Source of the DNA: Bolinopsis microptera
Taxonomy: Eukaryota > Ctenophora > Tentaculata > Lobata > Bolinopsidae
NCBI RefSeq assembly: GCF_026151205.1
Contig: NC_087078.1
Location: forward strand, 7,022,675 to 7,086,674
Length of the DNA stretch: 64,000 bases
Reading direction: 5' to 3'
Shown piece by piece: positions 4,384-60,100 of the stretch. The notes under the pieces are model-generated. The model worked only from the letters and a program-made list of their open reading frames with translations. It searched no databases and was not told where the DNA came from. Position 1 is the first letter of the stretch; each line of letters opens with the position of its first letter. The position numbers and the translations under genes are program-made.

Positions 4384-4400
4384 TAATAGACACTGATCAT

Positions 4401-5357
4401 CAACCTACGGAAGTGACTCTGATATCGTCACCACAGTGATTAAGTATGAGGAGAACTTAAAGAAGACCAGAAGTTTTTGTAACCTGAGTGACTCAAAACA
4501 ACAGAGTAACACCCTTGAAGAAAAGAAGAATGGCAAAACGTTCTTCCAGTTTGTCAAGAAAACAGGAAGCAACCTCAAAAGTCGGTTGGTTAAGGTGAAA
4601 GACATAGCTCCGGGGAATAAGCATGGTCAAACAAAACCGTGTAGAAAGAAGAACTGTGCAACGTGTGAGTCTATTGATAGTGCTACACAAATCAGCATCA
4701 ATGGGAAACGGGTAAAACCAGCACCAGGTACATGCATCACTTACAACATCATATATTTGATCAGATGTAAACTGTGTGAGAAACCATACGTAGGCAAATC
4801 CACCAGAATGCTACGGGTAAGGTTTGGCGAACACAGAAGAGCATTCTACAAGATCATCAGTGGGCAAAAGGTTGACACGGATGATGACTCAAACTGTGTA
4901 GGACTCCACCTCCATATAGAGCATGGATTGTCTCAGAAGGAAAATTTTAACAATAGTGTTTCAGTGTGTATCCTAGAAAATTCAAGTCCTAGTAGTTTAG
5001 ATGTAAAGGAGCACCGATATATACATGCCTTAAAGTCCCTTCGCCCCTCAGGAATGAATAGTACAAACCCTTTCAAGATTCCTTTACCTCATAATTAATT
5101 TTTATTTTGTCCGAGGGGCTTTCTATAAATTATTTTTTTAAAATACTTGGTCCATTTATTGATGTTTCATTTTTCACAGCATTTTCCTTTTAAGAGTTTG
5201 AGTTTATATTTAGAAACTAACCATACTATCTTTTAGATTTATGTCACTTATGATGGCTCCGGCTGAAAGTACTATGACTCATTTTATTTAAAAGATCGTA
5301 GTTTCATTGCTTCTGAAGTAGCTATCAGTTCGCCGGTCATTGTTGGGTATAATACTC
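4401..5357 (+). mobile_element. 5'-truncated Penelope-like retroelement inserted in the pogo-like element
   Basis: An 11-bp direct repeat acactgatcat flanks this segment (4390-4400 and 5358-5368). Pogo copy 2 at 18.7 kb has the same sequence uninterrupted with a single acactgatcat, giving an empty-site comparison. The insert holds the C-terminal part of a Penelope-like ORF with its GIY-YIG nuclease and about 260 bp of 3' sequence. The 5' end, including the reverse transcriptase, is missing, as expected from incomplete target-primed copying. Confidence 0.85.
4436..5098 (+). CDS. Penelope-like element ORF fragment with GIY-YIG endonuclease
   Basis: The 220-codon frame is the tail of a Penelope-like ORF. 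A Cys-containing linker, KPCRKKNCATCES, is followed by NIIYLIRCKLCEKPYVG and VRFGEHRRAFY, which fit the GIY-YIG nuclease core (I-I-Y, Y-V-G, then Arg and His). In Penelope-like elements this domain nicks the target DNA. The reverse transcriptase domain is absent, so this is a dead copy although the frame is open. The distantly related ORF at 56277-58574 shows the complete arrangement. The ATG at 4436 is probably internal; the true start is lost. Confidence 0.8.
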   Translation: MIKYEENLKKTRSFCNLSDSKQQSNTLEEKKNGKTFFQFVKKTGSNLKSRLVKVKDIAPGNKHGQTKPCRKKNCATCESIDSATQISINGKRVKPAPGTCITYNIIYLIRCKLCEKPYVGKSTRMLRVRFGEHRRAFYKIISGQKVDTDDDSNCVGLHLHIEHGLSQKENFNNSVSVCILENSSPSSLDVKEHRYIHALKSLRPSGMNSTNPFKIPLPHN

Positions 5358-19108: not shown

Positions 19109-21834
19109 TTAAATTGGAGTTTCTGTAACGATATCCTCGTTTGCTTTTACTAGCGATGCTCCCTCACAGGCAATTTGATCAGCAGTATCTAGCGTTTGCT
19201 CTGCTGAAGCAACTTTAAGCGATCTTAAAGATATTATACATTTCGAGAATACGGCAGCAAAATGTTTGACAGTCTCATCAAAACACTCTCGGAGAGTGTT
19301 GTCATACAATAAAGGGTTAATGACCGAATTGAGGGGTAAAACTATCATAGCGAAGGTGACGTACCAATCTGAAGCATCGATTGTTTCAAGATTGTGGAGC
19401 CCACTGATGATTATAAATGGAACCCAACAGGCAAAATCGGTGGCTATGATGAGCGCAACCCTGTTCTGCATCACCCGGTTTTTGCGGACAGCTTCAGGAT
19501 TGTTGTTCTGTCCAGAATTCTTAGATGATTTCTGCGATTTCATGTTGATCATAAAATAAGACACGGTTATCAACACAAAGCAGAAAAGGTTGACGCCCAA
19601 CATGAGCCAGACTATAATATTTCCTTTCACGTCGATCATTTCAGTTTCCACATCCGATGTTGTTCGGCTTCTTCTAGGATCATCACTTCGAACAAAATAC
19701 TTGAAGAGGCACACACCATCATTACCGTAAAAGTGAACAGCACTTTTACTCAAGCTTTTTTCGAACATTCTATCAACTTTCTTGCCGATTCTAGCCCAAG
19801 TTTCAGTTGTTGAAATGTTTTGTTTATAGTATGCTCGAAGAATTTTGATGTGCTTTATTTTGTTTGGGAATCCGATAAATAACTTGTAGAGTGGATCATA
19901 AAAGAAACCTTGCACAAAATAGTCCTCTAAAGCGGGGACCAATGGTATGATTGCCACTGATAGCGAGGCAATAGTGATTCCAATAACGATCCCAATGGCT
20001 TTTGCTATTACTCTTTTATTGACAGGTGCTGGAGCGCTAAAAGAGCTTTTCAGAATTCCCCACATCCTTATCAGGCTTAGAATCGTCATAGAAAAGAGAG
20101 AAAGTTGTGATCCTGTAGTACTGATAACTCCTAGAACAGAACAAGCATTTCCTGATAACCACTCAGCTTGCTTCCTGCAATAATCCTTTCCGAGAATGAA
20201 ACTGTCGAATACGGATAGTACGACCAAGTAGACTCCTATCAGGAAATCACCCGATCCGATTAGACAAACTAACACTGTAGTGTATAGCTTGCTTCCTGTT
20301 TCAGAGTCTTTCACTAAACTCGCTACTTTGGTTACCATGACAGCATTAAAAATGACTGCTAAAAGGCCCAACAACCAGCAATAAAGTTTCAAGAACATGT
20401 TCATGATAATTTCCTTGCCACAGATTAAATTGCATTCATCTGAAAGATCGAAACAATCAAATATACCATCACACTTCTGAGAATAAGCTATCCAGTGCTC
20501 TTTTACACCAGTCAGGTTTCTTGTATTTTCACACACCGCATGGTTAGTACAGTTTTGTTCATCGGACATGTCACCACAGTCATCAACAAGGTCACAAACT
20601 TGGCTATACTCAATACATTTAGTATTTTTACATTGGAAAAATGTATTTTCATATTCACCATGATCAGACAATGTTACGAAAGTCAGGTTATTGTTGTTGG
20701 CCAGAGTTTTAACTCGGTCAGGATACTGACCAGGACATGAATCATACTCTAAAAGCGTGTCCTGAAGAGGACATGTTGAGTTTTGGCACAAACCCATGCA
20801 ACTGATAAACACATAATATTCACCGAACAGATTATTGCAGTTCACCTTTAAGCTCGGGACATTAAGCATTATCTTAACACCAAAAACAGATCCTGCTGGC
20901 CTCCTAAATTCCCGTGTACGACATGGTACATTTTTAAGGTCTGATAATTTGCATAAATCTCGTCCAGCACATCTTTCATTCACAGCAGACGTATTGATAC
21001 TTGGGAAATCTCGCGAAATTCGGCAGACCTCATTTTCAACCTCTGCCTCACAAGAGTTCACACCATCACAAAGAAAGTCAAACTCAACATAGCCGGTAAA
21101 AAGCGGACAATAAAAAACGTTCTGGCAGGTTTTTTCTCCGATGGCTATTCTTTTAGCGAAATCGAAAATAGGGGATTGATTATTATTTCCACAATTTTTC
21201 CAAAACTGACTGTGAATATATTCATCTTCTCCGATCATATTATGAGCATATACAGGGAGACAGTCGGATTCCTTGTCCCTTATCCATTTTATAGGTATTT
21301 CCATATTTCTATCGCCACCAAACTTGCGAGTACAGTTGAAGTAGCCCTTTGTTGTTAGTTGGCATATGTCAAGGGTCTCATCACTATTATCTTCACAGTC
21401 ACTAACTCCATCACAGAGTCTGTGTTTGTGAACTTTACAGTTTGTGAACCGAACATCGCTGTTGCTGTTGATAAAGCTCTGTGACGGATTCTCACCAGAA
21501 TTTCTTCGACAGTTCTGGTCACAGTACTCTACAAAATGTCGTACTCCTTTTTTATCTTCACTAAAATAACCTCCACAGAGGTAATCGTTTTGTTTTGTAA
21601 TTTTCGAATGAAAACCACTTGCCTGATAAACATACGGGTCATTTTCACACACAGTAGAGACACTAAAGAGTGTTTTACTCTCAGTACTCATTACATTATA
21701 GGTAATGTTCGAATATGCGCACATGTGAAAGTAATCTTTTCTACTTTCATCATAACACAGGTGTTTCAAAAATCCGCCGATATTAGTCACAGTGCAATTT
21801 TTGTTGGATTGCTGCCAAATTTCGTCAACACATC
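19109..21834 (-). CDS. Receptor exon 9: LDLa modules and seven-helix domain
   Basis: 907 codons and a stop in one exon. LDLa-type Cys/Asp-rich modules lie at about residues 132-157 (CDGVSDCEDNSDE), 242-270 (CDGVNSCEAEVENEVC), 401-428 (CDLVDDCGDMSDE) and 434-467 (CDGIFDCFDLSDEC); the second lacks the usual SDE and may not bind calcium normally. Seven helices follow: about 477-502, 517-542, 560-587, 608-634, 747-771, 797-819 and 827-850. TM6 has TDFACWVPF and TM7 NPLLYD, as in glycoprotein-hormone/relaxin-type receptors. The DRY position reads IRMW. The loop between TM4 and TM5 is about 110 residues, far longer than usual. The C tail is ~60 residues. Many NxS/T sites fit an extracellular location. 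Confidence 0.85.
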
Positions 21835-24800
21835 CTGGTCAGTGGACAGTTGTTATTTTCAAAATAGAACAAAAACCACCTGCAGATACCCTATTATTTC
21901 ATCTTCATGTCGCACTACGAGCCTCTACAGGTTATTTAGTACTAATTGTTTAGTTTGACTTTACTGGAGGCCACGAAATATAATAAAATAAATCGTAACT
22001 CAATTAGAAAGTTTAACTATAGACCTGTATTACTAAAGCAGTGGAGCCAGATACTGTCCTCATATTGACAGTTGAGTCTGTGAACAAAATCGCAAACTGA
22101 TATGTCTGTATCTTTCTCTTTACAGCTTACGTGATTCATTTCTCTTGACATGTCATTGTCAGTTCGATTCAGCCATTCCCTGAATTATTAAATGGTTGAG
22201 TGCAGAATGTTTGGATATTCAGAATGGGAAATATACAGGATTTCCATTGCAACAGAAACTTTGATGTTGACATGTAATTATGAATTAAACTCACTCTGGA
22301 ACATATTTCATGTTTCTCGGATAACTTCCCCAGTCTGAGAAGCGATGTTCAATTGACCGGCAAAGAAGCTGTGCCGAATACCAGTTAAATGAATTCTTAC
22401 AAACAAGTCCATTTTGCGCCTCACCAGTTTGCTTGTCAATAAATGTTGTGATCAAAAGACCCCCGTTATCATTTAATCTTTTCGTTCCATTTACCATGTT
22501 GATAAGAGACATATTTCCCTCAAAGTCCCAGACACTCTCTGAAACAATCATTATAACAGTTAGTGAAGAATCGTATTTTTTCCCGATCCATGACTCAAGT
22601 GCCGAAGGCACAAAAGAGTCAAGGACAAGGGTTAGCGAACGAGGTTCATTTTGGTATAACTATATGGTAGCTTGTGTCCGTCGCCTGCTGTCGTCGCGTA
22701 CATGCCTGTTATCGCCCACCGCGCCCACGTTCCTAACTGTGCAAAGTTATTTTTCGCGATATTCTGAATTAAATTTTTGTTGGTGCGAGCTGCTGAACTG
22801 ATCATCGTCAAGTAAAGCGTTCATTTCACCATAAACGTATCCCACAAGGCACAAATTGATAGCATATTATTTCGAGTTAGTATTACTATTATGCACAGAT
22901 ATGTGTCAGGTTGCATAAATAATAAACATATACGGTACATAGAAGTATACACGATTTTAAAATTCAATATGGAGTTAACTTGGCGGCGCTCGGCCTGTCA
23001 CTCTGCCATATCCGCATCTTAACATGGTACCGCGACAATTGACCCCCCCGACAATTGATCTAGGGTTTAGTCTCTTGAGTCTTGACACCATTTCCTGCTA
23101 GTGCTTATAAACAGTAAATCCTGGGGTTCTCAGGTTGTATGGAATATGATAAAATACGCCATCATGGATCGGGAAATTGAGCGGCCATCCACAAAAGAAA
23201 AGTGGCCACATTTCTTATTGAAAGAGCGAATTAACCCTTATTAAATATTTATTGATCCTTCCGTGATTGGTCTAATAGTAATAATAAACGAAGTCCCAGT
23301 ATCGGATTAAACGATGCTGAGGATAGAGTTTTAATTTCACTTATTAATGTTACATTGTCACGGCCCACAATCCACATTTTTAATTCACTAACCTATATAA
23401 TAAGAGGCACTCAGGAAGCCGCGCGATCCAAGAAGGGTTATTTGCATTTTGCTCACTTCTCTTCCCCACTTCCAGATTCTTCCACTACACCTTCTAGAGG
23501 TTGCTGTTATATTGATAACCAGTTCTCCGTTGCAATGTATTATAGTCCTATAACCATGTTTTTCTACCACCCAGTTTTTATCTGTTTCTGCTGGTAGATT
23601 TGTCAGGAAGGGAGTCCAGGTTGACTGACAACTTAATTTTAACCCACCTACAGAATTACTGAGTTGGATGATAATATCTCCTAGTACACTGTATTTCTCA
23701 TTATAGTACACTATGGATATATAGCCCTGACTATCCACAGTGGTGTTCGTTCTCAGGTGCAGGTAAGAATTCTCCATGTCAGCAGGGATCCTCATAAGCC
23801 ATATACTCTTTTTCATATACTGATACTCTTTGTCAAGTATCCACATACCTGTTGATTTGTTAGTTATTCTGAGATTAACCGGGAAGGAAAATGTACGATA
23901 TAATATTGTATAATTATTATATATCCATGGTTTTTCATATAATAAAATATATTATATCACAATGCTGACAAGCATTACCGTTGCCATTATATTCACAATA
24001 CTATTTACCCCCCTATACTATTATATCCCCTTTATTGTTTTTCAGGCATTAACACTCATCGAAAGTAGTTCAGCAGGTATATTCAAGTTCAAAACATTCT
24101 AATTCAATGTTAAAGATGACAGGAATAAGAAATAGTTATGTGGAGGAAAAGGAAACGTTTTCAAAGGTAAAATTTCGAAATCTTTGAAATGACCTCCTTA
24201 TTAATGAAGTTTCGACTGTGTAAATTATTCTGACATTATAATCAAAAAGAGATGATATTTGACCAAAACCCATAATCATGGGTAGAGTGAACCGCTTTTC
24301 CCATTCATTCACGGCTTACGAAATGTAATAAAGCTTATAATTATTGAATGGGAAAAGCGAGCGACCGATTTCATTCTCGGTATCAATTTGCATTTGCGGA
24401 CGGTTCCTCAAATTAATATCATTTCCTTTTGTTTGGGAAAGAGAGACACTGGCAGCGGTTCACTCGACCACTGATTATGGGTTTTGGTCAAATATACCTA
24501 TACGAATTAATAATAATTATTAACTCTATCATCTAAATATATAAAGCGAGACGATATAATATATGGATGTGTTTATCCGTGCCATTTTACTGACACCACG
24601 GCATCAAGTTTAACGCGACTTTCCGCAAAAACCGTAAAAGATATACAACTGAAACTTTTTTGAATGGGTCAAATTATGCTTTAATGGCCTCCAAGTCCAA
24701 GTCAGCATGAAAAAGTAAAAAATTGGCCAAGGAATAGGAGTTTTAGAGCCCAAAATTTGGACCCCCAAGTGGTGTCAAAAACGCGAATTAAATAGGTAAT

Positions 24801-27800
24801 AATTATTTCAGTCTCTAACTCTTGACACCATTCGTTATGAATATTATCGTTCGTAATATTATCTGCACAAATTAGCAGATACAAATAAGTATAAAAACCA
24901 ATATCTATTTACAAACTACAGCTACTATTTTACTTGGAAATGTGCCGTCGCTAATTATTGAATCTTATCTTTTTATACATAGCTGATAAGATTTTCAATG
25001 CATGTAAGACTATGTACTTATATTATTACTGCAGTACAAGTATTGTTTCGACTCCAAAGTAGTGTGCTGTTTTTTGCACATGGGGGCCAATTCGAACAAA
25101 AATACGATTTAGAACCGACATATGCTGCTGCCACTGGCGGAAGCGCTGCCCAAATTTCGCACTTTGTATGACCAAAATGTTTGTACGGAAATTTATATTA
25201 AAATAATTGTTATCATTATCATAACACCAAGTCTGTTATCTTTCAACTATTCCTATTAATTTTCAGGCTCAAGTATTAGGTTTTGTACGTCACATGTGAA
25301 CAAATGAATACAAATTATTAAGCCTTCTCTCCTACACATTCAGTTCCAGGTTAATATAATAAAGAATAAAATAATGTTTGATGAGATTCCTAGACTCTTT
25401 GACTTTGATTTTTTAGTGCGTGACAGGAATTATTATTATTTGTTTATGATACATATCAGATGATGACTCTAATAATGAAGTACCTGGCACCTGCTGCTAT
25501 CTCGCGCTGTTGATTTCTCCGATCATCAATATAATCCAATAATACCTTGGATTTTGAGTGCTACGCGCGATAATTCCCATCGGCTTGCTGGAGTATACTA
25601 TAATGATATCATTCTCTAAATTGTAGCTTACCAGCAAACCATATACGCTTTGTCGTATACTCTTTGTCAAGTATCACAGGATTCCACATACCTGTTGATT
25701 TATTAGTTATGCTGAGATTAACCGGGATGAAATATTCCGAGCTGCGAAACAAATTTCAAAAATGTTAATAGGAAAATGTACGATATAATATTGTATAATT
25801 ATTGTATATCCATGGTTTTTTCATATTATATAATATATTATATATACCTATACGAATTAATAATTATTATTAACTCTATCATAATCGTAATAGTCACATG
25901 GTATGAAAATGGAGTATATCACCTGCTTCGTTGGTACAATGCAGCCACACGCTCCGATTACTACTGCAACTGTCTGTTGATACTCTAACATTGCATTCAG
26001 AACTTGCATTCAGAACTTCGTTGTTAATGTCTTTGCAAATCAATTCACTCAGTATCATAGACTCTTTTGTGTGTTGTTGTAAAAACGTTCTGGATTATAT
26101 TATTGGTTTTATAAATTTATACAGGGGGAGGGGGCCAAAAATCAGTACCCAAACGTTGGCCTTAATAGCTCAGTCACTGAGTGCCCAATTGAAATAATTC
26201 TTATGATATGACTCACTACCACCACTGGTTCGAGGAATTTGTAAAATCGAAAAATATTCGTGTTAATTTTTTACAAATGAAGGTTAATTTTTGCATTTAT
26301 TTGATAGTTTGGATAGTCGATAGTTTGGATATTCAAGCTAAATTTTATTGAATTGTGTTTAACCATTTAAATCAAGTTTGTCCTGAAAAAAAAATGAGAG
26401 TTCTAGTTTCTCAGATGACCGAGATACGAAGCATAACGAGTATGTTCATTACGTGTGATCAGGTGATTGTTTTGAGGCTAGATCTGCATTGTGGGAATCG
26501 TGCAGAGAGCTCAATTACGGTGTCGTAATTGGGTAATCATTGATTACCTAAAATGAGATTGCAGTTTTTGTTACGTGTTGACAATCTAGCTCTCTTATCT
26601 CTATTTTATCGCTACATTATATATAACTGCCATTGTGCTGGTACTGTGTTTTTATTTATACAAGTACAAGTACAGGATGGATGATGATGAAATAGATACA
26701 CTTCAAAGATTGTCAGGTTACTCTGCCTACATTACCGAAGAGCATGAGGTCTATAACGATTCGGTCACTGAACTCGCGGAAGCTATGAACTGTGACAATA
26801 AATCAGAGTTTTCAGTTGAAACGTTCAAAAAGCCAGAGAAGTCAGTTTTAGTAAAATATTTGTATTGTGCGTATCAGACAACCAGTGATCATGTAAATAA
26901 GTTTCTGGATATCAAGAAAGATATGGAGGAGTTGAAGAGCGATCTTATCCGATCGCAAAGTACTATTATCAAGCTGCAGGCTGAACTTCTGGAAATCAAA
27001 TCGAAGCAGTTGGAATCCGTGCACTCCACCGTCAAGACCGCTGTTCAGGACACTGTTCAAGCAGTCAAGCTGTTTCAAAAGCAGAAGAGAGCTTGAAAAA
27101 GGTTGTACAGAATGTTATATCAGAAGATGATCGAACTAAGAATGTGTTAATATTTGGAAGAGAATCTGAGTCATGAAGTTGGCGAGATGTTTCAGCAGAT
27201 TGAAGAAAAGCCACACTTCGAAGCTGTCTTGGTTGGGAAAAAGTCAGCTGAAAAGATTAGACCCGTTAAAGCTTCTTTTGAAAATTCAAGTGCAATCCAT
27301 CAGATATTAGTGAAAGCCAAAGAACTGAGACTGATTCCACGTCATAATTTTTTTTTCATTTCTCCGGACCGATCACCTGAGGAACGAACTATCCATCAAC
27401 AGTTGCAAGTCTTAGAGATGAAACAGATTGCCAAAGAAGACACAGATAAACACTATTATATCAGAAGTCGTAAAATTTGTTGTAAGGACAAGGTATTGGA
27501 GTGAACGATTTATAAATATAATAATGTTTAATGATATATATCCTTAAGTTGTTTTTTATACCGGTGCTATACTAACTTTTAATGTCAATAAGTAATTTGG
27601 TTTTGGATTTTTTGGATTTATCATACTCATTAAGGGTATTTGGCTAAATTGGACCTAATTTGGACCAAATATGGGCGTGGCTGCCCCGCAGGCACCGTTT
27701 GGCGGTTGGGGTCTGGGACCCCCTCAAAGGTTTGGTCACCGGTCCTAGTTTATTGGTCAACTGCTATCTCGAAACCAAGTTTCACAAAAAATCAGGGTTA

Positions 27801-29241
27801 ACCCCCTCTCCCCCCCCCCCCCCCCCCCCCCCCCTTAAAGCTTAACTGAATATCTTAGTTTGGGGTATATTCATAGGTCAGCCGCTTTGACATCGGCAAT
27901 TTTTATTTTTATTTGGATTGTTGATATAAGCGGGATAAAAATGCTTTATTTCATTTCATTTCATTTTCATTTTCATTACCCAATCAATTTTGCTAACGAG
28001 ATAAACAAGTTGCTCGATAACTTCGTCATTTTAAAATCCGTTTCGCACCATCTTTTCAGATTATATTCCGGATTAAATTACCTATTGCAATATGTTACAA
28101 CAGAGTCTTTAACATATTCACAAACACGAGTATAAGCAATTCAGTGTTGAATGGGTGTGGCACCAAAAAATCGAATTTTCAAATTTTGTTGACGCTGTGC
28201 TTGATCAACACAGCGAAGCCTCGGGCGAAGAAAGTGTGGCATAGTGCCTTAACCGTTGCTGGCCTTAGGAACGATCCTTCGGCTTCTTGTAAAGCTCTTC
28301 CTTGAAAGTGCTGGTTTACATTGTAATGCAGGTAATGCCGAAGTAAAATAACAAAGGTGGTCGACTCATTCGATGGCCTTGTTGCGTCGCAACGAATCCT
28401 CATAAGATAAGATAAGATAAGAATCCTCGAGCAAGTAGGTACAGTATGCCATCTGCAAAGCAACAACTCTAAAATATAACGCGGTGGTATAACTATAAGA
28501 CCCAACGTATGGGTACTGAATTTTTGTCCCCCCTGAATTTTTGTCCCCTCCGTTTAGAAGAAAAATTCAATTAAAAACTCACTCGGAAATGAGTCTCCAA
28601 TAATTGTTAGGTTTGCTGTCCCACTTTCCCTGTTCGTTTCCAAGGTAGCGACAGAAGGTATTTGCTGTGTACCAATTAAAGTTACCAGGACAAACGGTGC
28701 CGTTCATCTTTTCTCCACTTTTCTTATCGAATAAACTCACAACGAGCACACCTTCATTTCTTGTTCCAACAACTGTACCGTTCACCTCGTTTACTAGGGA
28801 TGCTTCAAAGAATTGCCAATCATTGTAAGATCGACTCTCAGACGCTTCCCCAACTGAAAAAAAAAACGCAATATAAAATACCTACCTTCGGCTACCTCAA
28901 CAACGAAGTTTTTAGCAAGAATTGGGAGAAAAGTTTTAATGATTTAAATTTTTGCATCGATTTTATTTGTAACACAAGTTTTTTATCTAAGGTGCATCGT
29001 CAGTAAATAGCAGCTTTTTGAAACCATAAATATCAGTGTGAGCTGTGACTCACCATAGTTATTCACAGTTTCATCATCTTCTGTATCCTCATTTCTTACT
29101 CCATGATTGAGCACCAGCATTAAACTGCAGGTAACAAAAGTTAATAAATTTATTGGTAAATAAATATTTATTGTAAATATAATATAATAATATTAATCAT
29201 ATGTCTACATCATACCTGAACACTGAATGTACAATGTACAT
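19109..29241 (-). CDS. Multi-exon receptor: SRCR - novel domain - SRCR - LDLa x4 - 7TM (LGR-type GPCR)
   Basis: Nine exons were joined by hand: 29241-29216, 29124-29054, 28853-28583, 26089-25923, 25691-25632 (optional), 23848-23393, 22538-22295, 22179-22025 and 21834-19109. Every junction has GT/AG and the codon phase agrees at each join, giving 1391 residues, or 1371 without the optional exon. The product should be a plasma-membrane G-protein-coupled receptor with a ~900-residue extracellular region of scavenger-receptor and LDL-receptor modules, probably binding a protein or microbial/carbohydrate ligand. The ligand and G protein cannot be inferred. LDLa plus LGR-type helices is known from relaxin-receptor-like proteins, but leucine-rich repeats, usual in that group, are not seen. 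Introns hold a mariner-type element, a 'cacaatgctg' repeat and Helitron-like pieces. Confidence 0.7.
22025..22179 (-). CDS. Receptor exon 8: second half of SRCR domain 2
   Basis: 51 codons: EWLNRTDNDMSREMNHVSCK, then DISVCDF, RLNCQYEDSIWLHC and FSNT. Four cysteines and the closing 'iwLhC' complete a six-cysteine, group A-like SRCR domain with exon 7. One base completes the shared Glu codon; the exon ends in phase 1, matching the start of the last exon. The frame contains no ATG. Confidence 0.65.
22295..22538 (-). CDS. Receptor exon 7: first half of SRCR domain 2
   Basis: 80 codons from SVWDFEGNMSLINMVNGTKR to MKYVP. NGLVCKNSFNWYSAQLLCRS is the SRCR signature with both cysteines. Acceptor tgattgtttcag, donor GTGAGT; enters after phase 1, leaves in phase 2. 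An open frame continues upstream to 22611 but lacks homology and is intron. Confidence 0.7.
23062..23102 (+). repeat. 3' end fragment of the Helitron-like family
   Basis: 'agtctcttgagtcttgacac' then 'cctgctag' match the right end of the elements at 42622 and 52843, with a short internal deletion. It lies in the receptor intron. Confidence 0.5.
23393..23848 (-). CDS. Receptor exon 6: unrecognised ~150-residue extracellular domain
   Basis: 151 codons in one exon, phase 1 at both ends, so a complete exchangeable module. It contains alternating strands (SIWLMRIPADMENSYLHLRT, GYISIVYYNEKYSVLGDIII), 'NWVVEKHGYRTIIHCNGELV' and cysteines near LSCQS, IIHCN and RRCSG. It looks like a beta-sandwich lectin- or FAMeT-like fold, but I cannot assign a named family. 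Position between two SRCR domains implies an extracellular role. Confidence 0.6.
23958..24497 (+). mobile_element. Repeat family 'cacaatgctg', copy C, internally deleted, in receptor intron
   Basis: Left end cacaatgctgacaagc, right end gggttttggtcaa as in copy B. The intron duplicate at 25.80-25.88 kb has 'aatatattatatatacctat' uninterrupted at the matching point, so this copy inserted after the intron segment was duplicated. The middle of copy B and most of the left foldback arm are missing; the arm deletion joins at 'cgct'. Confidence 0.75.
24534..24830 (+). repeat. Helitron-like family, 3'-truncated copy
   Basis: Shares 'aaagcgagacgat', 'gtgccattttactgacacc', 'aaaaccgtaaaagatataca' and 'aagtggtgtcaaaaacgcg' with the copies at 42.6 and 52.8 kb, but loses the last ~40 bp. 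Confidence 0.7.
24831..25631. other. Receptor intron, unique sequence
   Basis: No exon candidate or repeat family recognised here. Confidence 0.35.
25632..25691 (-). CDS. Receptor exon 5: 60-nt optional cassette
   Basis: It reads MWNPVILDKEYTTKRIWFA between acceptor aaatcaacag and donor GTAAGC, phase 1 on both sides. Its start and the ~90 nt of intron before it duplicate the start of exon 6 (MWILDKEY...). Since exon 4 can also join exon 6 in phase, it can be included or skipped without breaking the frame. It may equally be a decaying partial duplicate that is never used. Confidence 0.4.
25923..26089 (-). CDS. Receptor exon 4: second half of SRCR domain 1
   Basis: 55 codons: TFLQQHTKESMILSELICKD, then ASSECNV, STDSCSSNRSVWLHC and TNEA. 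The spacing of the four cysteines and the final 'vwLhC' match the second half of an SRCR domain and the paralogous exon at 22025-22179. It takes one base and ends in phase 1 before GTGATA. The acceptor (aatataatccag) is weak in pyrimidines but is the one that gives the needed phase. Confidence 0.6.
26635..27096 (+). CDS. LINE-type ORF1, N-terminal part (coiled coil)
   Basis: A 153-codon frame; the likely start is the ATG at 26677 (MDDDEIDTLQRLSG). The C-terminal half, MEELKSDLIRSQSTIIKLQ onward, has heptad-type Leu/Ile spacing of a coiled coil, as in trimeric LINE ORF1 proteins that bind the element's RNA. A stop after KQKRA and an offset to the next frame (27154) suggest one frameshift. No transposase or reverse transcriptase motif is present. 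Confidence 0.45.
   Translation: MLVLCFYLYKYKYRMDDDEIDTLQRLSGYSAYITEEHEVYNDSVTELAEAMNCDNKSEFSVETFKKPEKSVLVKYLYCAYQTTSDHVNKFLDIKKDMEELKSDLIRSQSTIIKLQAELLEIKSKQLESVHSTVKTAVQDTVQAVKLFQKQKRA
27154..27504 (+). CDS. LINE-type ORF1, C-terminal domain
   Basis: The frame contains KIRPVKASFENSSAIHQIL, KELRLIPRHNFFFISPDRSP and ERTIHQQL..LEMKQIAKED, closing with HYYIRSRKICCKDK. 'RPvKv.f......L..akeLr.....ifIspDrtpeeR...r.L..el' is a pattern I associate with ORF1-type proteins of invertebrate retroelements. It follows the coiled-coil frame at 57 bp and is probably its continuation after a frameshift. ORF2 is absent; only ~470 bp of 3' sequence follow. Confidence 0.45.
   Translation: MEENLSHEVGEMFQQIEEKPHFEAVLVGKKSAEKIRPVKASFENSSAIHQILVKAKELRLIPRHNFFFISPDRSPEERTIHQQLQVLEMKQIAKEDTDKHYYIRSRKICCKDKVLE
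27805..27834. repeat. Poly-C tract
   Basis: Nearly 30 C residues after 'aaccccctctc', within the 3' part of the LINE-like insert. Length uncertain. Confidence 0.85.
28195..28420. mobile_element. SINE-like insertion with (AAGAT)n tail
   Basis: Present here and absent from the MITE at 39.2 kb, where 'ttttgacgac' runs straight into 'ggaatcctcgaa'. It contains tggcatagtgcc and, ~30 nt later, ggaacgatcc, resembling the A and B boxes of tRNA-derived RNA polymerase III promoters, and ends in a short aagat repeat. Origin from a tRNA SINE is an inference. Confidence 0.4.
28583..28853 (-). CDS. Receptor exon 3: first half of SRCR domain 1
   Basis: 89 codons from GEASESRSYNDWQFFEASLV to WRLIS. NGTVCPGNFNWYTANTFCRY matches the SRCR signature 'GtVCdd.fdw..A.vvCrqLG' (two of the conserved cysteines). 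Acceptor is a long pyrimidine tract ending cag, donor GTGAGT. It starts after phase 1 and ends in phase 2, exactly as the SRCR-2 exon at 22295-22538 does, so the two SRCR domains share an intron inside the domain. Confidence 0.7.
29054..29124 (-). CDS. Receptor exon 2: end of signal peptide and acidic linker
   Basis: Between acceptor ctgcag and donor GTGAGT the frame gives LMLVLNHGVRNEDTEDDETV and NNY: the end of the signal peptide and an acidic linker. It takes two bases from exon 1 and gives one to exon 3. A damaged second copy of this exon lies at about 30240-30315. Confidence 0.55.
29216..29241 (-). CDS. Receptor exon 1: start codon and signal peptide beginning
   Basis: ATG at 29241 opens MYIVHSVF before donor GTATGA, leaving two bases. 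Joined to exon 2 the N terminus reads MYIVHSVFSLMLVLNHGVRN, a credible signal peptide with hydrophobic core. In-frame stops lie just upstream of the ATG, which fixes this as the first possible start in this frame. Confidence 0.55.
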
Positions 29242-44498: not shown

Positions 44499-47400
44499 CA
44501 CCAGTACAATTACCATATGGCATATCCCCACCACCAGTACAATTACCATATCCCCACCACCAGTACAATTACTATATCCCCACCACCAGTACAATTACTA
44601 TATCCCCACCTCTAGTACAATTACCATATCCCCACCTTCAGTACAATTACCATATCCCCACCACCAGTACAATTACTATATCCCCACCACCAGTACAATT
44701 ACTATATCCCCACCACCAGTACAATTACCATATTCCCACCACCAGTACAATTACCATATCCCCACCACCAGTACAATTACCATATCCCCACCACCAGTAC
44801 AATTACTATATCCCCACCACCAGTACAATTACCATATCCCCACCACCAGTACAATTACCATATCCCCACCACCAGTACAATTACTATATCCCCACCACCA
44901 GTACAATTACCATATCCCCACCACCAGTACAATTACTATATCCCCACCACCAGTACAATTACCATATCCCCACCACCAGTACAATTACTATATCCCCACC
45001 TCCAGTACAATTACTATATCCCCACCAACAGTACAATTACTATATCCCCACCACCAGTACAATTACCATATCCCCACCTTCAGTACAATTACCATATCCC
45101 CACCACCAGTACAATTACTATATCCCCACCACCAGTACAATTACCATATCCCCACCACCAGTACAATTACCATATCCCCACCACCAGTTCAATTACCATA
45201 TCCCCACCACCAGTACAATTACTATATCCCCACCACCAGTACAATTACCATATCCCCACCACCAGTACAATTACCATATCCCCACCACCAGTACAATTAC
45301 CATATCTCCACCTCCAGTACAATTACCATATCCCCACCACCAGTACAATTACTATATCCCCACCTCCAGTACAATTACCATATCCCCACCACCAGTACAA
45401 TTACCATATGGCATATCCCCACCACCAGTACAATTACCATATCCCCACCACCAGTACAATTACCATATCCCCACCACCAGTACAATTACCATATCCCCAC
45501 CACCAGTACAATTACTATATCCCCACCTCCAGTACAATTACCATATCCCCACCACCAGTACAATTACCATATCCCCACCACCAGTACAATTACCATATCC
45601 CCACCACCAGTACAATTACCATATCCCAACCACCAGTACAATTACTATATCCCCACCACCAGTACAACTACCATATCCCCACCTGGTGGTCCTCCAGTAC
45701 AATTACCATATCCCCACCACCAGTACAATTACTATATCCCCACCACCAGTACAATTACTATATCCCCACCACCAGTACAATTACTATATCCCCACCACCA
45801 GTACAATTACTATATCCCCACCACCAGTACAATTACCATATCCCAACCACCAGTACAATTACTATATCCCCACCACCAGTACAACTACCATATCCCCACC
45901 TGGTGGTCCTCCAGTACAATTACCATATCCCCACCACCAGTACAATTACTATATCCCCACCACCAGTACAATTACCATATCCCCACCACCAGTACAATTA
46001 CTATATCCCCACCACCAGTACAATTACCATATCCCCACCACCAGTACAATTACTATATCCCCACCACCAGTACAATTACCATATCCCCACCACCAGTACA
46101 ATTACTATATCCCCACCTCCAGTACAATTACTATATCCCCACCAACAGTACAATTACCATATCCCCACCACCAGTACAATTACCATATCCCCACCTCCAG
46201 TACAATTACCATATCCCCACCTTCAGTACAATTACCATGGTAATTGTGGGGATATGGTAGTTGTACTGGAGGTGGGGATATGGTATACCATATCCCACCT
46301 CCAGTACAACTACCATATCCCCACCACCAGTACAATTACCATATCCACACCACCAGTACAATTACCATATCCCAACCACCAGTACAATTACCATATCCCC
46401 ACCACCAGTACAATTACCATATCCCCACCACCAGTACAATTACCATATCCCCACCACCAGTACAATTACCATATCCCCACCACCAGTACAATTACTATAT
46501 CCCCACCACCAGTACAATTACCATATCCCCACCACCAGTACAATTACTATATCCCCACCACCAGTACAATTACTATATCCCCACATTCAGTACAATTACC
46601 ATATCCCCACCACCAGTACAATTACCATATCCCCACCACCAGTACAATTACTATATCCCCACCACCAGTACAATTACTATATCCCCACCACCAGTACAAC
46701 TACCATATCCCCATCACCAGTACAATTACCATATCCCCACCTCCAGTACAATTACCATATCCCCACCTTCAGTACAATTACCATATCCCCACCTCCAGTA
46801 CAACTACCATATCTCCACCACCAGTACAATTACCATATCCCCACCACCAGTACAATTACCATATCCCCACCACCAGTACAATTACCATATCCCCACCACC
46901 AGTACAATTACTATATCCCCACCTCCAGTACAATTACCATATCCCCACCACCAGTACAATTACTATATCCCCACCACCAGTACAATTACTATATCCCCAC
47001 CACTAGTACAATTACCATATCCCCACCTCCAGTACAATTACCATATCCCCACCTTCAGTACAATTACTATATCCCCACCACCAGTACAATTACTATATCT
47101 CCACCTCCAGTACAATTACCATATCCCCACCACCAGTACAATTACTATATCCCCACCACCAGTACAATTACTATATCCCCACCACTAGTACAATTACCAT
47201 ATCCCCACCTCCAGTACAATTACCATATCCCCACCTTCAGTACAATTACTATATCCCCACCACCAGTACAATTACTATATCTCCACCTCCAGTACAATTA
47301 CCATATCCCCACCTTCAGTACAATTACCATATCCCCACCTCCAGTACAATTACCATATCCCCACCACCAGTACAATTACCATATCCCCACCACCAGTACA

Positions 47401-48966
47401 ATTACCGTATCCCCACCTTCAGTACAATTACCATATTCCCACCTCCAGTACAACTACCATATCTCCACCACCAGTACAATTACCATATCCCCACCACCAG
47501 TACAATTACTATATCCCCACCACCAGTACAATTACCATATCCCCACCACCAGTACAATTACCATATCCCCACCACCAGTACTATTACTATATCCCCACCT
47601 CCAGTACAATTACCATATCCCCACCACCAGTACAATTACTATATCCCCACCACCAGTACAATAACTATATCCCCAGCACCAGTACAATTACCATATCCCC
47701 ACCACCAGTACAATTACTATATCCCCACCACCAGTACAACTACCATATCCCCACCTGGTGGTCCTCCAGTACAATTACCATATCCCCACCACCAGTACAA
47801 TTACTATATCCCCACCACCAGTACAACTACCATATCCCCATCACCAGTACAATTATCATATCCCCACCTCCAGTACAATTACCATATCCCCACCTTCAGT
47901 ACAATTACCATATCCCCACCTCCAGTACAACTACCATATCCCCACCACCAGTACAATTACCATATCCACACCACCAGTACAATTACCATATCCCCACCAC
48001 CAGTACAATTACCATATCCCCACCACCAGTACAATTACCATATCCCCACCACCAGTACAATTACCATATCCCCACCACCAGTACAATTACCATATCCCCA
48101 CCACCAGTACAATTACTATATCCCCACCACCAGTACAATTACCATATCCCCACCACCAGTACAATTACTATATCCCCACCACCAGTACAATTACTATATC
48201 CCCACCACCAGTACAACTACCATATCCCCATCACCAGTACAATTACCATATCCCCACCTCCAGTACAATTACCATATCCCCACATTCAGTACAATTACCA
48301 TATCCCCACCACCAGTACAATTACCATATCCCCACCACCAGTACAATTACTATATCCCCACCACCAGTACAATTACTATATCCCCACCACCAGTAGAACT
48401 ACCATATCCCCACCACCAGTACAATTACCATATCCCCACCACCAGTACAATTACCATATCCCCACCACCAGTACAATTACCATATCCCCACCACCAGTAC
48501 AATTACTATATCCCCACCTCCAGTACAATTACCATATCCCCACCACCAGTACAATTACTATATCCCCACCACCAGTACAATTACTATATCCCCACCACTA
48601 GTACAATTACCATATCCCCACCTCCAGTACAATTACCATATCCCCACCTTCAGTACAATTACTATATCCCCACCACCAGTACAATTACTATATCTCCACC
48701 TCCAGTACAATTACCATATCCCCACCTTCAGTACAATTACCATATCCCCACCTCCAGTACAACTACCATATCTCCACCTCCAGTACAATTACCATATCCC
48801 CACCACCAGTACAATTACTATATCCCCACCACCAGTACAATTACCATATCCCCACCACCAGTACAATTACTATATCCCCACCACCAGTACAATTACCATA
48901 TCCCCACCACCAGTACAATTACCATATCCCCACCACCAGTACAATTATCATATCCCCACCTCCAGC
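44499..48966. repeat. 26-bp minisatellite, ~170 copies, 4.5 kb
   Basis: Unit cagtacaattaccatatccc + caccac. The main variants are acca/acta, ccacctccag, ccaccttcag and caactacc. Longer patterns recur: 'attaccatatggcatatccc' at ~44510 and ~45405, and 'cacctggtggtcctccag' at ~45680, ~45897 and ~47753, showing larger duplications. As 26 is not a multiple of three and no stop arises, each plus frame stays open for hundreds of codons with a 26-residue period; none is supported as a gene. The minus strand has a G-rich block, ggtggtgggg, in every unit. Confidence 0.97.
46232..46320. repeat. Inverted units within the minisatellite
   Basis: From about 46237 the array runs backwards for two units (gtaattgtggggatatggta, gttgtactggaggtggggat), then forwards again with complementary sequence, forming a ~40-bp-arm palindrome centred at about 46283. 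Confidence 0.85.
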
Positions 48967-54128: not shown

Positions 54129-57100
54129 GTAAAGTTAGAAAATTGTTGTTATTGTAAAGCGAAAATTGTTCATTAGCAACAAGCTTAATTGTTTTTTAGG
54201 AAGTATAAAATAATCTAGTGGTTAATTCCCACATCCAGAAAGGCGGCAGACCGGCAGATAATCTGCGAGAAAATTTTTGATTTTAGAGAATATTTTGATA
54301 AAGTTATAGGATCTAACCTTTTTCAACACGGAATTTCTTTGGTAGGTTTCATCTGTACACAAAACACATTATTGAACATATGAAAATAACAGAGAAAATT
54401 TCTATCACAAGTAAGAGCTATTTCCACAGAAATCAAGCCAAACTCTTTATCTTGAAGTGAAGTATAAGTAAAACTCTTTGTTCATTTAGACTTAATCACA
54501 CTGAGGTTAAAACATTCTGAAACATTATAAACATTAGTATTAAAATAACTGAAATAAATAAACAAGAAATATAACAATCTCCCCGAATAAATAAACACAA
54601 CTACAAAATCAAAAAGTGATCCCGTGCGCGTGCGCGCGCAAAATTTAAAACAGAAGAAGTGCTTACAAAAACTTTGACCTAAGATGGCGTCCTAGAGTAG
54701 ACCCTTTCAAAGTGCCAATTTAAAATGTGCACGGCACAAAATATAAATTACCTTCCTAACACAGGTTCTAAGAATAATGCCGATTTCCCTACTCGGGTAA
54801 AAATTCAATTAAACCTCCGACAGGCTAAATATAATAAATACGTCAGTCACGCTCTATTGAACGGAATACAAAACAATCAGAATTCAATTCTAATAAAGAG
54901 AAAAACATCTACTTCGGAAATACCCAATCCAGGTGAATATGAAAGATGAATGTGAAACATAAGTATGAAACGTAAATATGAAAACCGTGAATATGAAATG
55001 TTTACTGATAGCCAGAGTTACTAGACGTGCTATCAGGTGATGGATACAACACTGTGGGAGTTCTGTCTCTACCAGATCTACGTAGTCTTATAGGATTGTC
55101 AATAGTTTTTGTACAGCCTCATTATTACTTTCTGAAGGCACAATACTGTCATGAACATCGGAAGTCACAATATTGTCATAAGCATTAGGCCGGGAATCAT
55201 CACCAATAGGAGCTAACCTCAGTGTGATTAAACTTCATTTAATCACACTGAGGTTAAAAAATTCTCAAATTATTTGTTATATTAATATAGTAGTGTTGAA
55301 AGTATTAAAACTCCTAAGGCATTTATAGCTGGCCTACAGTCTCCTGGTATACGTCAACGGGTATTGGAAAGCGAGAAGACTGCATTGTCAGACATCTATT
55401 CCTTAGCTAGAGGGCTAGAGGCAGCAAAGGTTCAGGCCCAATCTTATGTCAACCAAGGTTCATCTCTCAACGCAATTGTTAATAACAATGAATCAGTGTC
55501 AGATTCAGAAGGGTGTGCTAACCATGATGACAACTTCGTAGCAGCTGCCCCATTTCAATTCTCCTGTTATTTCTGCGGTGGGCCCAAACCGCACACAAAC
55601 AGACAGGCCTGTCCTGCTTTTAACTCTAACTGCAACGGTTGTGGAATTCAGGGACATTTCCAAAAAGTCTGCAAAGCCGGTCGCCAATCTCAAGTTCGGG
55701 GCGGCAGTGCCCGCGGCAAGAATCGACGTTACAATCAATATCGTAGCTCTCAGAATATGACATCATCAGCAGTCTCTCACAGTAGCTCTCAATCCCAAAA
55801 CGGGACATCATCGGCTCTCCACAACCATTATCTTGCAGCTTCGCCTCCATGCTTGTCCAAGAGTATTACCAGAGTCCTTGTCAATGGGAGAGAGCTTGAT
55901 GCCTTGGTAGATTCTGGAAGTTCATCAACTTTTCTCAGTAATGCCAGTGTCCGGAAGCATCAATGGGACATTAATCGCGGAGACCATGCACCTGTCAGTA
56001 TGGCCTCTTCATCCCACATCTCTCATCCTGTCGGTCACTGTACTGTAGATGTTCATTTCAATGGTGAATTATTACCAAATCAAACGATTGTGGTAATGAA
56101 GGACTTATGTGCTGATATGATCATAGGACTAGATATCCTTTCTGATTACAAATCCGTGACATTGGAGTTTGGAGGCCACAAACCTCCTACTATTGTATCT
56201 GCAGCTGCTTGTCTCATCAAAACACCTAAGTGTCATGAAAACGGTGCTTATCTTCTGTGAATATCACCTCTACTAAAACACAGTAGATGGGTACAATGCT
56301 GCCAACAAACAAGCATGGAAAGCTGTTTTTAAGAACTCAGCACGGGATAACGAAGTTCCTATGGAGCTACTGAAGAAACCAGTAACAGCTCCTTGTACTT
56401 CTTTTGAAGACCCAGCCATCAAGTCTGCAAAAGACAACATTGTCAATTTTGTAGACAACTTCAAGCCCAGAAAACTTGAATCTAATATGAACCGCTATGA
56501 GAGTGAAGGGTATATGTGGTTGAAGAAGGCTGTCAAGGATGGCTTAATAGCCATAACATCGGCTGATAAGGGCGGTGCGATAATCATTGTCACCCCTCAG
56601 ATAATCAAGGATATCACTTCTGCCAAAGTTGAGGACCCTTTGAGATACAGACCTTTGCAAACTGATCCTACTGGATCTTTGAGAGGGAGGTTGTTAGAGC
56701 TGTGGTCATCTGGTTTGGAGCGGAAGTATGTAAGTGGTGAACAGTCTAAGTGTGTGGTTGGTTTGATTCAGAAGTCTGATCGGGACACTCTTTCACAGAG
56801 CACTTCAGATCTAGTCAAGCCCGATATTCCGTATGGTTACCCATTACTGAAAATTCACAAGCTGACTGAGACTGAAATTAGAGAGAAAAAGATTCCACCC
56901 AGTCGATTCGTGACTGATCTCTCTAGAGGAGTAACTGCAAGATCAGATAAGTTTGTTGTTTGGAAGTGGTTGGGACCTCTTGCCAGGGATTACTGTATAG
57001 ATCTTGTTAAAGATTCAACTGCAGCTCTCATAAAACTCGAGGAATTGGCAGCTTCCGGACAAGTAGTCGATACTTGGATCAGCTTCAGTATTGATATTGT

Positions 57101-60100
57101 TTCTCTATACGATTCTCTGCAACATAGCTTGGTGATGTCAGCCTTAGATGATGCTATGGAGTCGTGTAGACCAGATTGGTCTGAGGAGTTCAGGACTTGG
57201 CTGAAGGGACTGATACAGCTTAGTTTTGATTCGGCAGTCTTGAAGAATGCAGACAACTGGTATGAGGTCGTTAACGGTGTACCCACTGGAGGTATCAATT
57301 CAGTGGATTGCGGTAACATTGCTTTGTTCTTTGTCCTAAAGAGTCTGGTTTACGACCCGGTTGTTAGACCAGAGGAGCTCAAGAACCTTGATCGGTTTGT
57401 GGATGATATTTCGGGCCAAGGTATGTGGAGAGGTTCTATGATTGGTTTTGAAGAATGGGTAGGGTCATTACGCAGTAAGATGGTTGATAACTATGGCTTA
57501 GATATTACATACGAAGTGAAACCAATCACGGAGTTCACTCAGTTCCTGGACATTCAGTACAAGTTTGTTGGAGGGAGACTCACAACAGATCTGTTTAGGA
57601 AACCTACTGACGCCAACAGGTATCTTGAATTCTCAAGTTTCCATCCACGACATACCTTCCGGAGTATAGTCTTCTCACAGGCACTTCGATACAGAAGGAT
57701 AATCAATGATGACGTCTTGCTGGATGAGAGATTGGCAGAGCTTCAGTTGTTTTTTGAACGGTCTTCATATCCTACTGATATGGTGAGAGAGGTCATCAGT
57801 GATGTCAGATCGATACCAAGAACTTTACAGTACAAGGCAAAGGATCAGGGTCCCCCTTCTTTCACACCATGGATTGTTACATTCGGTGCGGGCTATGAGG
57901 AAACCAAGGAAAAGGCTAAAGAGGCCAGTAACATCATCTCAAATAGCCGTACATGGAGCAGTGAGAACCCTGAGAGGATCCCTAAACTCCAAGTGGTGAC
58001 CAGGCGAGCCCCTAACTTAAAGGACACTTTATTCAAGAGAAAGAAGCTTGCCTTAGGTTCAGAGTCAAGAACAACTGACCCATGCACCAAACCTGGTGAG
58101 AAGAAGAAAGGCAGACCCTGCCAAACTTGTCACCTTGTTAGTGGCAATTCCATGGTCTCCAATAATGGACACTCAGTCAGAACTCAAGGTGGTAACTGTA
58201 AGACACGCAACATTGTGTACGGCGCGACATGCAAACTTTGTACTGTTAATAACGTATACGTGGGAAAAACAGTCACCAGCCTCAGCCAACGTGTGAATGG
58301 TCATCGCAGTAAATATTATGAGATTTTAGAGGCGAGTAGTAAGGGGAATGTTGAGAGCCACAGAGATTTTGATGACGAGAATGTTTTAGGAGCACATCTT
58401 TTTTCAGTTCATAATTTGAGGGAGAGATCTGTTTTCAATGAAAGTTTCCATTTTGATATTTTGTGTTCTACATCCCCAGATAATATTAGAAAGTCAGAAC
58501 AGTTCTATATTAACAAATTGAAGACACTTTATCCGTTTGGCCTGAACAATGTGAATTCCGTTTCTGGAAGCTAATTTTTCATGGTGTCCCGAATTTTATT
58601 TTTAAATCGTCCATTTTTTGTTTATATATGCAGTCTATCAATTTTTGAATTGCGTCTTTTTGATCTAATGAACTACTGCAGACTCCACATTATTATAGTA
58701 TATGCGATTAATTTTGTTCCGATTTTAAACTATTCCATTTTTACGAGATGCTAAATTAATTTTTTGAGACTTTACTACATTTTTGATGAGAATTTTTGAC
58801 ATTTTCAAACTAACCATTGATATTCTCAGATTATGTGACTGATTAAATGCTGAAGATAAAAGAAATATATTCATTTTGCTAAGATTATGTTTGCGTTTCA
58901 TTGCTCAACAGCTGTTCGAAGGATCAAATATAAGATACTAAAACACAAGGATTTATTTTATCAATATTCTATCCTCAGGGGAGTATCCTAGACGACTTGT
59001 TGGGCGGTGAGATGAACAGTCCTGATAAAGCTGGTCTCCTTAAGAAACAAGGCAACAGCCGACTCAGGGACTGGAAGTCCAGATACTGCGCCGTTAAGGG
59101 TGAGATCAGCTCTATTTTTACATCCCCATGTTGCTTGTCTGGATCTGGGTACCCCGACCTCTTGCTCTGCTTCCTGTTATAGTTTTTATTTATTTTCAGC
59201 CAATTATTGTAAGTTTAACATGAGCAAGCTGGGTGGTCGGCGGTCACCCTTTCAACTGCTAGACTTAGCTTAGACATTTGCGCATTTTTGTGAAATTAAC
59301 AGCGGAGAATTAGAGTTCTTTATAGAGTTTCGGGTGTTGATTGTGTTGCCATTATCCCGTAAATTATTGGGCGAGTGAAAACTTCCTGACAACATCGATG
59401 TAGCTATAGTTTAACGGTTGTTAAATTGCATGAATTGCCGAATGTTATGCTAATATATACGAGGAATTGAGGACTATATTTGTGATGTCACGTACTTAGC
59501 AGCGTTCCCCCACCTTTTTTATAATTCCCTGTCTCGTGCTGTAATAAAGCAGGAAATACAGTAAATTAGCTATCCCATAATTAAGACCACTGATTTTAAA
59601 GTGTGTCCTAATTGATTGAAATATTATTTTCTAAAAGACCTGATAAGTGCTAAGCTCAAAAACACTGGGCAGTAAGAGTACAATCTAATAATCTAGATTA
59701 ATAAATCTAAATAAGATAAGATCTATATACTTATATATTGATAAATCTAGATCAATCTAGTATTCCATTTTATCAGAAAATTAATGGTGATAAAAACCTT
59801 AACTTAACTTATTATTACAGACGGCACGTTCTGCTACTACGAGAGCTACGAAGCGTACTGTATAGCCACTCCCATAAACTCTATCTACTGTGGGACCCTC
59901 AAAGCTCAGATCTCGGACAGGGCCAGGTTCAAGTTCGAAGTCATCGTGCCTAACAGAACATATTAGTAAGTTACAAGATTGTTAGTTTATTGGAGAGATA
60001 GAGAGAGATATTGGGGATTATTTGACATATTTTGTCCTAGAAATGTTGCATATTCGACATACCTAAAATGTCAGCATACAATGAAATAGCCCAGAAAATG

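Follow-up and report, generated by a model that had tools for sequence, protein, structure and literature searches.

The described receptors found to be closest in plan to the gene analyzed here were the LDLRR-GPCRs of Ciona, where 14 of the 32 receptors in one RXFP-like cluster of G-protein-coupled receptors (GPCRs) carry LDLa modules without leucine-rich repeats (LRR) (PMC2396169; here and below, statements on published work refer to the accessible parts of the papers cited). The LDLa module of RXFP1 acts on the transmembrane bundle once the ligand has bound the LRR (PMC12687439), and the mollusc receptor GRL101 has several LDLa modules (PMC4079206). SRCR domains have been reported on adhesion-class receptors of amphioxus and of the sponge Amphimedon (PMC2246102, PMC4302439). 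The window analyzed here, a stretch of 64,000 nucleotides from the ctenophore Bolinopsis microptera (assembly GCF_026151205.1, contig NC_087078.1, positions 7,022,675 to 7,086,674), harbored on its minus strand a gene encoding, in this order, an SRCR domain, a novel module (module B), a second SRCR domain, a cysteine-rich/LDLa ectodomain and a class A seven-transmembrane (7TM) domain. This gene is a new form of the LDLa/RXFP-like class A receptors.

Like the Ciona receptors, the ctenophore gene combined an RXFP-like 7TM domain and an LDLa-bearing ectodomain without LRR, within a lineage-specific expansion (PMC2396169). It differed from them by its SRCR domains (the text of PMC2396169 has no occurrence of 'SRCR'), by further cysteine-rich segments in the terminal exon and by a family with far more members. 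With RXFP1, RXFP2, other type C LGRs and GRL101 it shared the LDLa module and a 7TM sequence whose nearest PDB entry was RXFP1; unlike them, it had no detected LRR, with SRCR and module B instead, and it displayed a very long loop between transmembrane helices (TM) 4 and 5 and isoleucine or methionine for the acidic residue before the arginine R3.50. The amphioxus and Amphimedon proteins likewise carry SRCR modules on a 7TM protein, but these are adhesion-class receptors, whereas the ctenophore 7TM domain is class A (7tm_1).

Among the partner domains of the SRCR genes surveyed in 29 animals was 7tm_2 (PMC10855680). In Mnemiopsis, 55 SRCR genes with unusual partner domains, LDL among them, were described (PMC11797021); this repertoire is alike in belonging to the same phylum, in joining SRCR and LDL with many other domains and in its large expansion, but the figure-3 legend of that paper placed 7TM under C-type lectin proteins and not under SRCR. 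The main text of a choanoflagellate GPCR catalogue contained no occurrence of SRCR (PMC12716839), and no rhodopsin-class receptor with SRCR turned up in the accessible parts of the open-access literature searched for SRCR. An earlier note on this DNA, made from the sequence alone, had known of no described rhodopsin-family receptor with SRCR domains; this held within that literature, and adhesion GPCRs already have them.

The core gene (28853-19109, minus strand) consisted of six exons and a doubtful 60-base mini-exon, with GT/AG splice sites and agreeing phases. Of the nine exons proposed in the earlier note, this core stood, while exon 1 was not seen in the paralogous loci L055 and L056. The nine-exon chain, exon 1 included, did sum to a multiple of three (4176 bases) with a single stop at its end, and translated into 1391 amino acids (aa), or 1371 aa without the mini-exon. 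Intron phases were 1 at the module borders and 2 inside each SRCR domain. The features, in window positions, were as follows:

29216..29241, minus strand: exon 1 of the earlier note, putative alternative start (MYIVHSVF); doubtful, with an ATG and a good donor, but L055 and L056 have an uninterrupted signal-peptide exon instead.
29054..29124, minus strand: exon 2, end of the signal-peptide exon (SLMLVLNHGVRNEDTEDD...), from alignment with L055 and L056.
28583..28853, minus strand: exon 3, first part of SRCR1; Pfam SRCR 25.3 bits together with exon 4, and paralogue comparison.
25923..26089, minus strand: exon 4, second part of SRCR1, acceptor AATCCAG/A, phase 2; paralogue comparison and increase in Pfam score.
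25632..25691, minus strand: 60-base phase 1-1 mini-exon, optional or non-functional; partial in-frame duplicate of the start of module B, not needed in the paralogue model.
23393..23848, minus strand: module B, a single phase 1-1 exon of about 150 aa, no known family; family matches in the genome and omega 2.2 in close paralogues.
22295..22538, minus strand: first part of SRCR2; Pfam SRCR E 4e-5 when joined with the next exon.
22025..22179, minus strand: second part of SRCR2, phase-2 intron before and phase 1 after; splice sites and phases.
19109..21834, minus strand: terminal exon with the cysteine-rich/LDLa ectodomain, the RXFP/LGR-like 7TM domain and a C-terminal tail ending in TETPI, then the stop; Pfam, PDB, hydropathy and motifs.

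All exons listed except exon 1 and the mini-exon were backed by splice sites, phases and comparison with two to six paralogous loci per junction (five for the SRCR1 acceptor). The start of module B was fixed at the conserved ATCAACAG acceptor; an exon start at an upstream GCAG acceptor (25741) misfitted the frame, and that acceptor was not kept in all paralogues, whereas ATCAACAG was. The exon 4 acceptors 26030 and 26047 (CTGAG/T) were dropped, as paralogues pointed to AATCCAG/A at 26089. With this acceptor the Pfam score of SRCR1 rose from 18.7 to 25.3 bits, the second query also lacking the first 33 residues. A local duplication was observed between 25727-25636 and 23884-23796 (81.5% over 92 columns in a self-comparison, 94.6% in the adjoining piece); the duplicated intron end and start of the module B exon gave rise to the in-frame mini-exon, which may be skipped in the transcript.

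At the 5' end of the window copy, exon 2 aligned with the signal-peptide exon of the paralogues and its open frame continued further upstream, but the ATG of the paralogues was missing, and the start read earlier was not confirmed. A second copy of SRCR1 and the signal peptide at 30349-29642 was rejected as the true 5' end. It had stops in all three frames, and its alignment over 720 columns (89.4% identity) contained 41 gap openings beside 18 mismatches, a pattern suggesting either long-read sequence left uncorrected in the assembly or a dead copy.

In the Pfam scan of the window exons, which listed matches down to E<=1, LDLa matched over three stretches (E 6e-13, above the cut-off) and 7tm_1 reached E 1.9e-12 (47.7 against a cut-off of 30.5 bits). 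No LRR family appeared in these exons at E<=1, nor did GPS/GAIN or 7tm_2, the marks of adhesion GPCRs. In other animals SRCR mainly serves immunity and scavenging, and group A SRCR domains have six conserved cysteines and are split over two exons. Six cysteines were likewise found in each SRCR domain of the model, and both domains were split by a phase-2 intron, as read earlier, once the SRCR1 acceptor was corrected to 26089.

The 7TM sequence matched RXFP1 best in the PDB (E 7.4e-16), followed by LHCGR and TSHR (about 1e-13), with FSHR also among the top entries; the stretch aligned with LHCGR and RXFP1 included TM3. The motifs TDFACWVPF and NPLLYD of the earlier note were both found in the window protein, together with R3.50, a cysteine in TM3 and a cysteine in the following long loop. 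Among the 20 terminal exons read, the loop motif HFYGxDGVCxFK and the motif NPxLY were each present in 19. At a threshold of 1.5, hydropathy picked out seven segments in L027 and six each in L010, L019 and the window. The predicted 7TM domain is of class A (rhodopsin), nearest to LGR/RXFP, without an LRR ectodomain. AlphaFold applied to the 7TM part alone (window 19112-20560) returned mostly helix, unusable at a predicted local distance difference test (pLDDT) score of 40.4 and a predicted template modelling (pTM) score of 0.27. A C-terminal T-x-I/T-x-L ending, which we take to be like a class I PDZ ligand, was observed in 11 of the 20 terminal exons (window 19112-19126), some others being cut by frame breaks or a run of N.

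The gene belonged to a large family. A query with the terminal exon returned 757 candidates, the best 50 of which were scored; the main match of each, the window itself excepted, was 51-80% identical to the query. The union of two TM5-TM7 queries (at least 150 matches each) amounted to at least 205 7TM loci in clusters on several contigs, a count that takes in fragments, stop-containing frames and four loci from small unplaced contigs (possible alternative haplotypes). The order SRCR-B-SRCR-ectodomain-7TM recurred on the same strand in the paralogous loci read, so that the combination of modules first noted in the window was reproduced elsewhere. At C10:1.78 Mb, on a different chromosome from the window gene, six GT/AG exons (phases 1, 2, 1, 1, 2, 1) joined into a single 1455-residue frame for SRCR, B, SRCR, ectodomain and 7TM; the base carried into the first of these exons was set by hand, and the signal-peptide exon was not found in the stretch examined.

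Positions of the modules across the genome displayed the same arrangement. Among the 150 7TM matches listed, 43 had SRCR upstream on the same strand at 20 kb and 38 at 10 kb, while the opposite strand gave 1 and 0 upstream and 0 downstream. In the downstream same-strand control, SRCR lay near 9 of the 7TM matches at 20 kb and near 6 at 10 kb, which tandem clusters would be expected to produce. When positions were shuffled 500 times (10 kb), 0.36 matches on average and 3 at most had SRCR, against the 38 observed. The two SRCR queries had 73 and 88 genome matches, corresponding to 92 distinct places, and 74 of these had a listed 7TM match at most 20 kb downstream on the same strand. Module B was found upstream on the same strand within 10 kb of 21 of the 150 listed 7TM matches, against zero for each of the three remaining orientations; widening the distance to 20 kb gave counts of 24, 0, 1 and 0.

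SRCR also reached a distant 7TM clade, as displayed by L061, with two exons upstream of the 7TM frame (GT/AG, phases 2 and 1); for the distant relative L059, no SRCR or B was found in 5.5 kb upstream (L064). A single gene encoding SRCR, B, SRCR, the LDLa ectodomain and the 7TM domain is almost certain from the predicted exons, and this predicted architecture belongs to the whole family, not to one odd gene. A tandem cluster of 7TM relatives was observed at C7:16.92-17.10 Mb; its SRCR exons matched the L061 query at 84-100% identity, and none of the B matches listed lay nearby. A 2802-aa open frame near L028 proved to be a run of N.

Module B matched no known family: across 14 members the best Pfam E was 0.036, with no family common to two members, and its profile reached E 0.43 at best against the PDB. 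The AlphaFold model of the window sequence alone was mostly beta and uninformative (pLDDT 43.7), and a fold search with it gave no match at E<=0.001. At least 150 matches to module B were present in the genome. A listed 7TM match lay downstream within 20 kb for 19 of the 20 matches ranked 1-20, for 7 of the 20 ranked 21-40 and for 4 of the 110 ranked 41-150; the few lower-ranked matches near a 7TM suggest that B is also used in other proteins. Two B copies in one frame, followed by a cysteine-rich stretch (sub-threshold MANEC), were seen at L062:1019-2407, three open-frame B copies in L063, and B copies near an immunoglobulin-like frame.

Selection differed strongly between modules. Eight close paralogues were compared for module B and six sequences for the terminal exon, the window copy being in none of the sets used for the rate ratio omega. 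Left out of the terminal-exon sets were L011 and L026, whose frames are cut, L018, which has an internal stop, and L014, nearly a duplicate of L012. The B set excluded L032 (near-duplicate of L034) and L031, L056 and L057 (repeat records of genes already included), and L036 was tried in and out. The ratio of nonsynonymous to synonymous differences per site (pN/pS) was 1.70 for module B (codon-bootstrap 95% interval 1.19-2.61). It was 1.08 for the first part of SRCR2 (0.53-3.39) and 0.54 for the second (7 sequences each), and 0.27 (2 sequences) and 0.66 (3 sequences) for the two parts of SRCR1. Within the terminal exon it was 0.24 in the N-terminal segment, 1.07 in the variable LDLa stretch (0.74-1.61), 0.36 in the remaining ectodomain and 0.17 in the 7TM domain (0.10-0.26).

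Omega values from a codon model on a tree were 2.22 (B), 1.49 (LDLa stretch) and 0.19 (7TM domain). With the tree fixed and kappa on a grid, twice the log-likelihood difference (2dlnL) from omega 1 was 15.84, 3.04 and 55.6, respectively, the last for purifying selection. Restricted to the 74 of 178 codons away from gaps, B retained an omega of 2.20 (2dlnL 6.23). Among the parts tested, B is the fastest-changing between close paralogues, and the 7TM domain and long loop hardly change.

Overall, the explanation favoured here, and a reasonably probable one, is a cell-surface recognition receptor with a variable head and a common RXFP-like output. The stacked SRCR-B-SRCR head would be membrane-distal, outside the cell, and would bind a variable macromolecular ligand on the surface of microbes, prey or tissue; within the head, module B would be what diversifying selection acts on. 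Through the LDLa segments, binding at the head would be relayed to the conserved long second extracellular loop and to the 7TM domain, which would signal via a G protein much as RXFP1 does, with LDLa acting on the bundle. The head would thus vary between paralogues while the output stage is kept. Varied ligands at the head and a shared output would be expected to give this pattern of a fast-changing B and a near-constant 7TM domain. That variable external ligands are recognized is an evenly balanced proposition; diversifying change in B fits it and names no ligand. The earlier note had suggested that the receptor may sense microbes, matrix or lipoproteins. The RXFP-like transmission step, drawn by analogy with the action of LDLa on the bundle in RXFP1, is proposed more tentatively. 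In Mnemiopsis, 12 of the 55 SRCR genes changed expression after a second exposure to Vibrio, 8 of them upward (PMC11797021).

Several observations weigh against this interpretation. Both SRCR domains of the window scored just below the Pfam cut-off (25.3 and 24.2 against 26.1 bits); a paralogue SRCR passed it at 28.0 bits (L061, C7:16.97 Mb). The acidic residue before R3.50 was replaced by isoleucine or methionine in 20 of 20 terminal exons, and coupling may consequently differ from that of RXFP1. With the two SRCR queries, 107 of the 150 listed 7TM loci had no SRCR within 20 kb, indicating that the family does not need SRCR. The signal of diversifying selection on B came from one clade of eight; a second clade of three sequences gave omega 0.99, and the pair L043 and L044 gave pN/pS 0.43. 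Finally, the window copy has lost the ATG of L055 and L056, and it could have become a pseudogene recently or start elsewhere.

Instead of an immune role, the family could have a chemosensory or prey-sensing one, in neurons or sensory cells, with surface molecules of prey or conspecifics as ligands of SRCR and B. Large clustered families are typical of chemoreceptors, and the at least 205 loci in clusters on several contigs are in keeping with this. The GPCR clades reported to have radiated in ctenophores, the 79 GPCRs placed among the top 10% of selection windows and a GPCR as top copy-number gene in Mnemiopsis (PMC13231562) would point the same way if they belong to the present family. SRCR, on the other side, is chiefly immune or scavenging in other animals, as discussed in PMC11797021, and the chemosensory role is considered rather unlikely, if the least so of the alternatives.

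For the window copy itself, the loss of the paralogues' ATG is accompanied by an exon 3 acceptor upstream of theirs (yet in phase), by the partial duplication of the B start and by the absence of about 130-170 aa of ectodomain present in full-length close paralogues, all of which would suit a recent pseudogene of the family. However, about 4.1 kb of coding sequence is open with all phases consistent, and another exon with good splice sites could supply the start. The window terminal exon, free of stops, had ratios of nonsynonymous to synonymous rates (dN/dS) of 0.34-0.37 against seven sisters (dS 0.36-0.39), pointing to constraint during much of its past. By parsimony, the window branch carried 95 nonsynonymous and 53 synonymous changes and the sister branch 67 and 27, a count biased by the site filter from which neither relaxation nor constraint is clear. 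A pseudogene appears unlikely.

A relaxin-type peptide hormone receptor, in which an ornamental head only positions the receptor for a fixed endogenous peptide, would agree with a 7TM domain nearest to RXFP1 and with the strong conservation of the 7TM domain and loop. Such a receptor is improbable: the LRR, the relaxin-binding part of RXFP1 (PMC12687439), was absent at E<=1 from the window exons, and an omega above 1 for B in one clade is unexpected with a fixed ligand. A mis-joining of two neighbouring genes, one for a secreted SRCR-B-SRCR protein and the other for an LDLa-7TM receptor, is very improbable, for although many 7TM relatives lack a detected SRCR and the intron between 22025 and 21834 is the weakest link of the model, this intron is short (190 bases in the window), its phase 1 donor and acceptor are kept in window and paralogue with a continuous frame, and the same order on the same strand recurs across the clade.

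Elsewhere in the window, open-frame pieces were observed on the plus strand at 26590-27504, within the intron splitting SRCR1; they presumably resemble a retroelement ORF1. A zinc-knuckle/protease-like frame lay next to a 765-aa frame at 55286-58574 (plus strand), the latter looking like a Penelope-type reverse transcriptase with a GIY-YIG end, and a second GIY-YIG-like fragment was located at 4397-5098 (plus strand), all recognised by eye. A 26-base tandem array of about 4.4 kb (44521-48965) had several frames open for hundreds of codons. Outside the window, a glutamate receptor of the genome matched the Mnemiopsis ML032222a domain best in the PDB (407 bits, the next molecule reaching 243), while the closest genome match to part of that domain was 81% identical, which points to a ctenophore other than Mnemiopsis leidyi.

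Ctenophores have been placed as the sister group of all other animals (PMC10232365, PMC11797021), and no bona fide Toll-like receptors were reported for Mnemiopsis (PMC11797021). With the recognition receptor favoured here, ctenophores might possess, as a tentative proposal, a lineage-specific and rapidly diversifying repertoire in which an exchangeable head of SRCR and positively selected B is set on a conserved relaxin-receptor-like G-protein output. If true, this would be a GPCR-based counterpart of the diversified immune and recognition receptors of other animals. With naturally varied heads on a shared output stage, the family would also allow tests of how an RXFP-like 7TM domain is driven by its ectodomain. 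The phylum would thereby gain a recognition system of its own kind, and an entry to how ctenophores sense microbes, prey and tissue.

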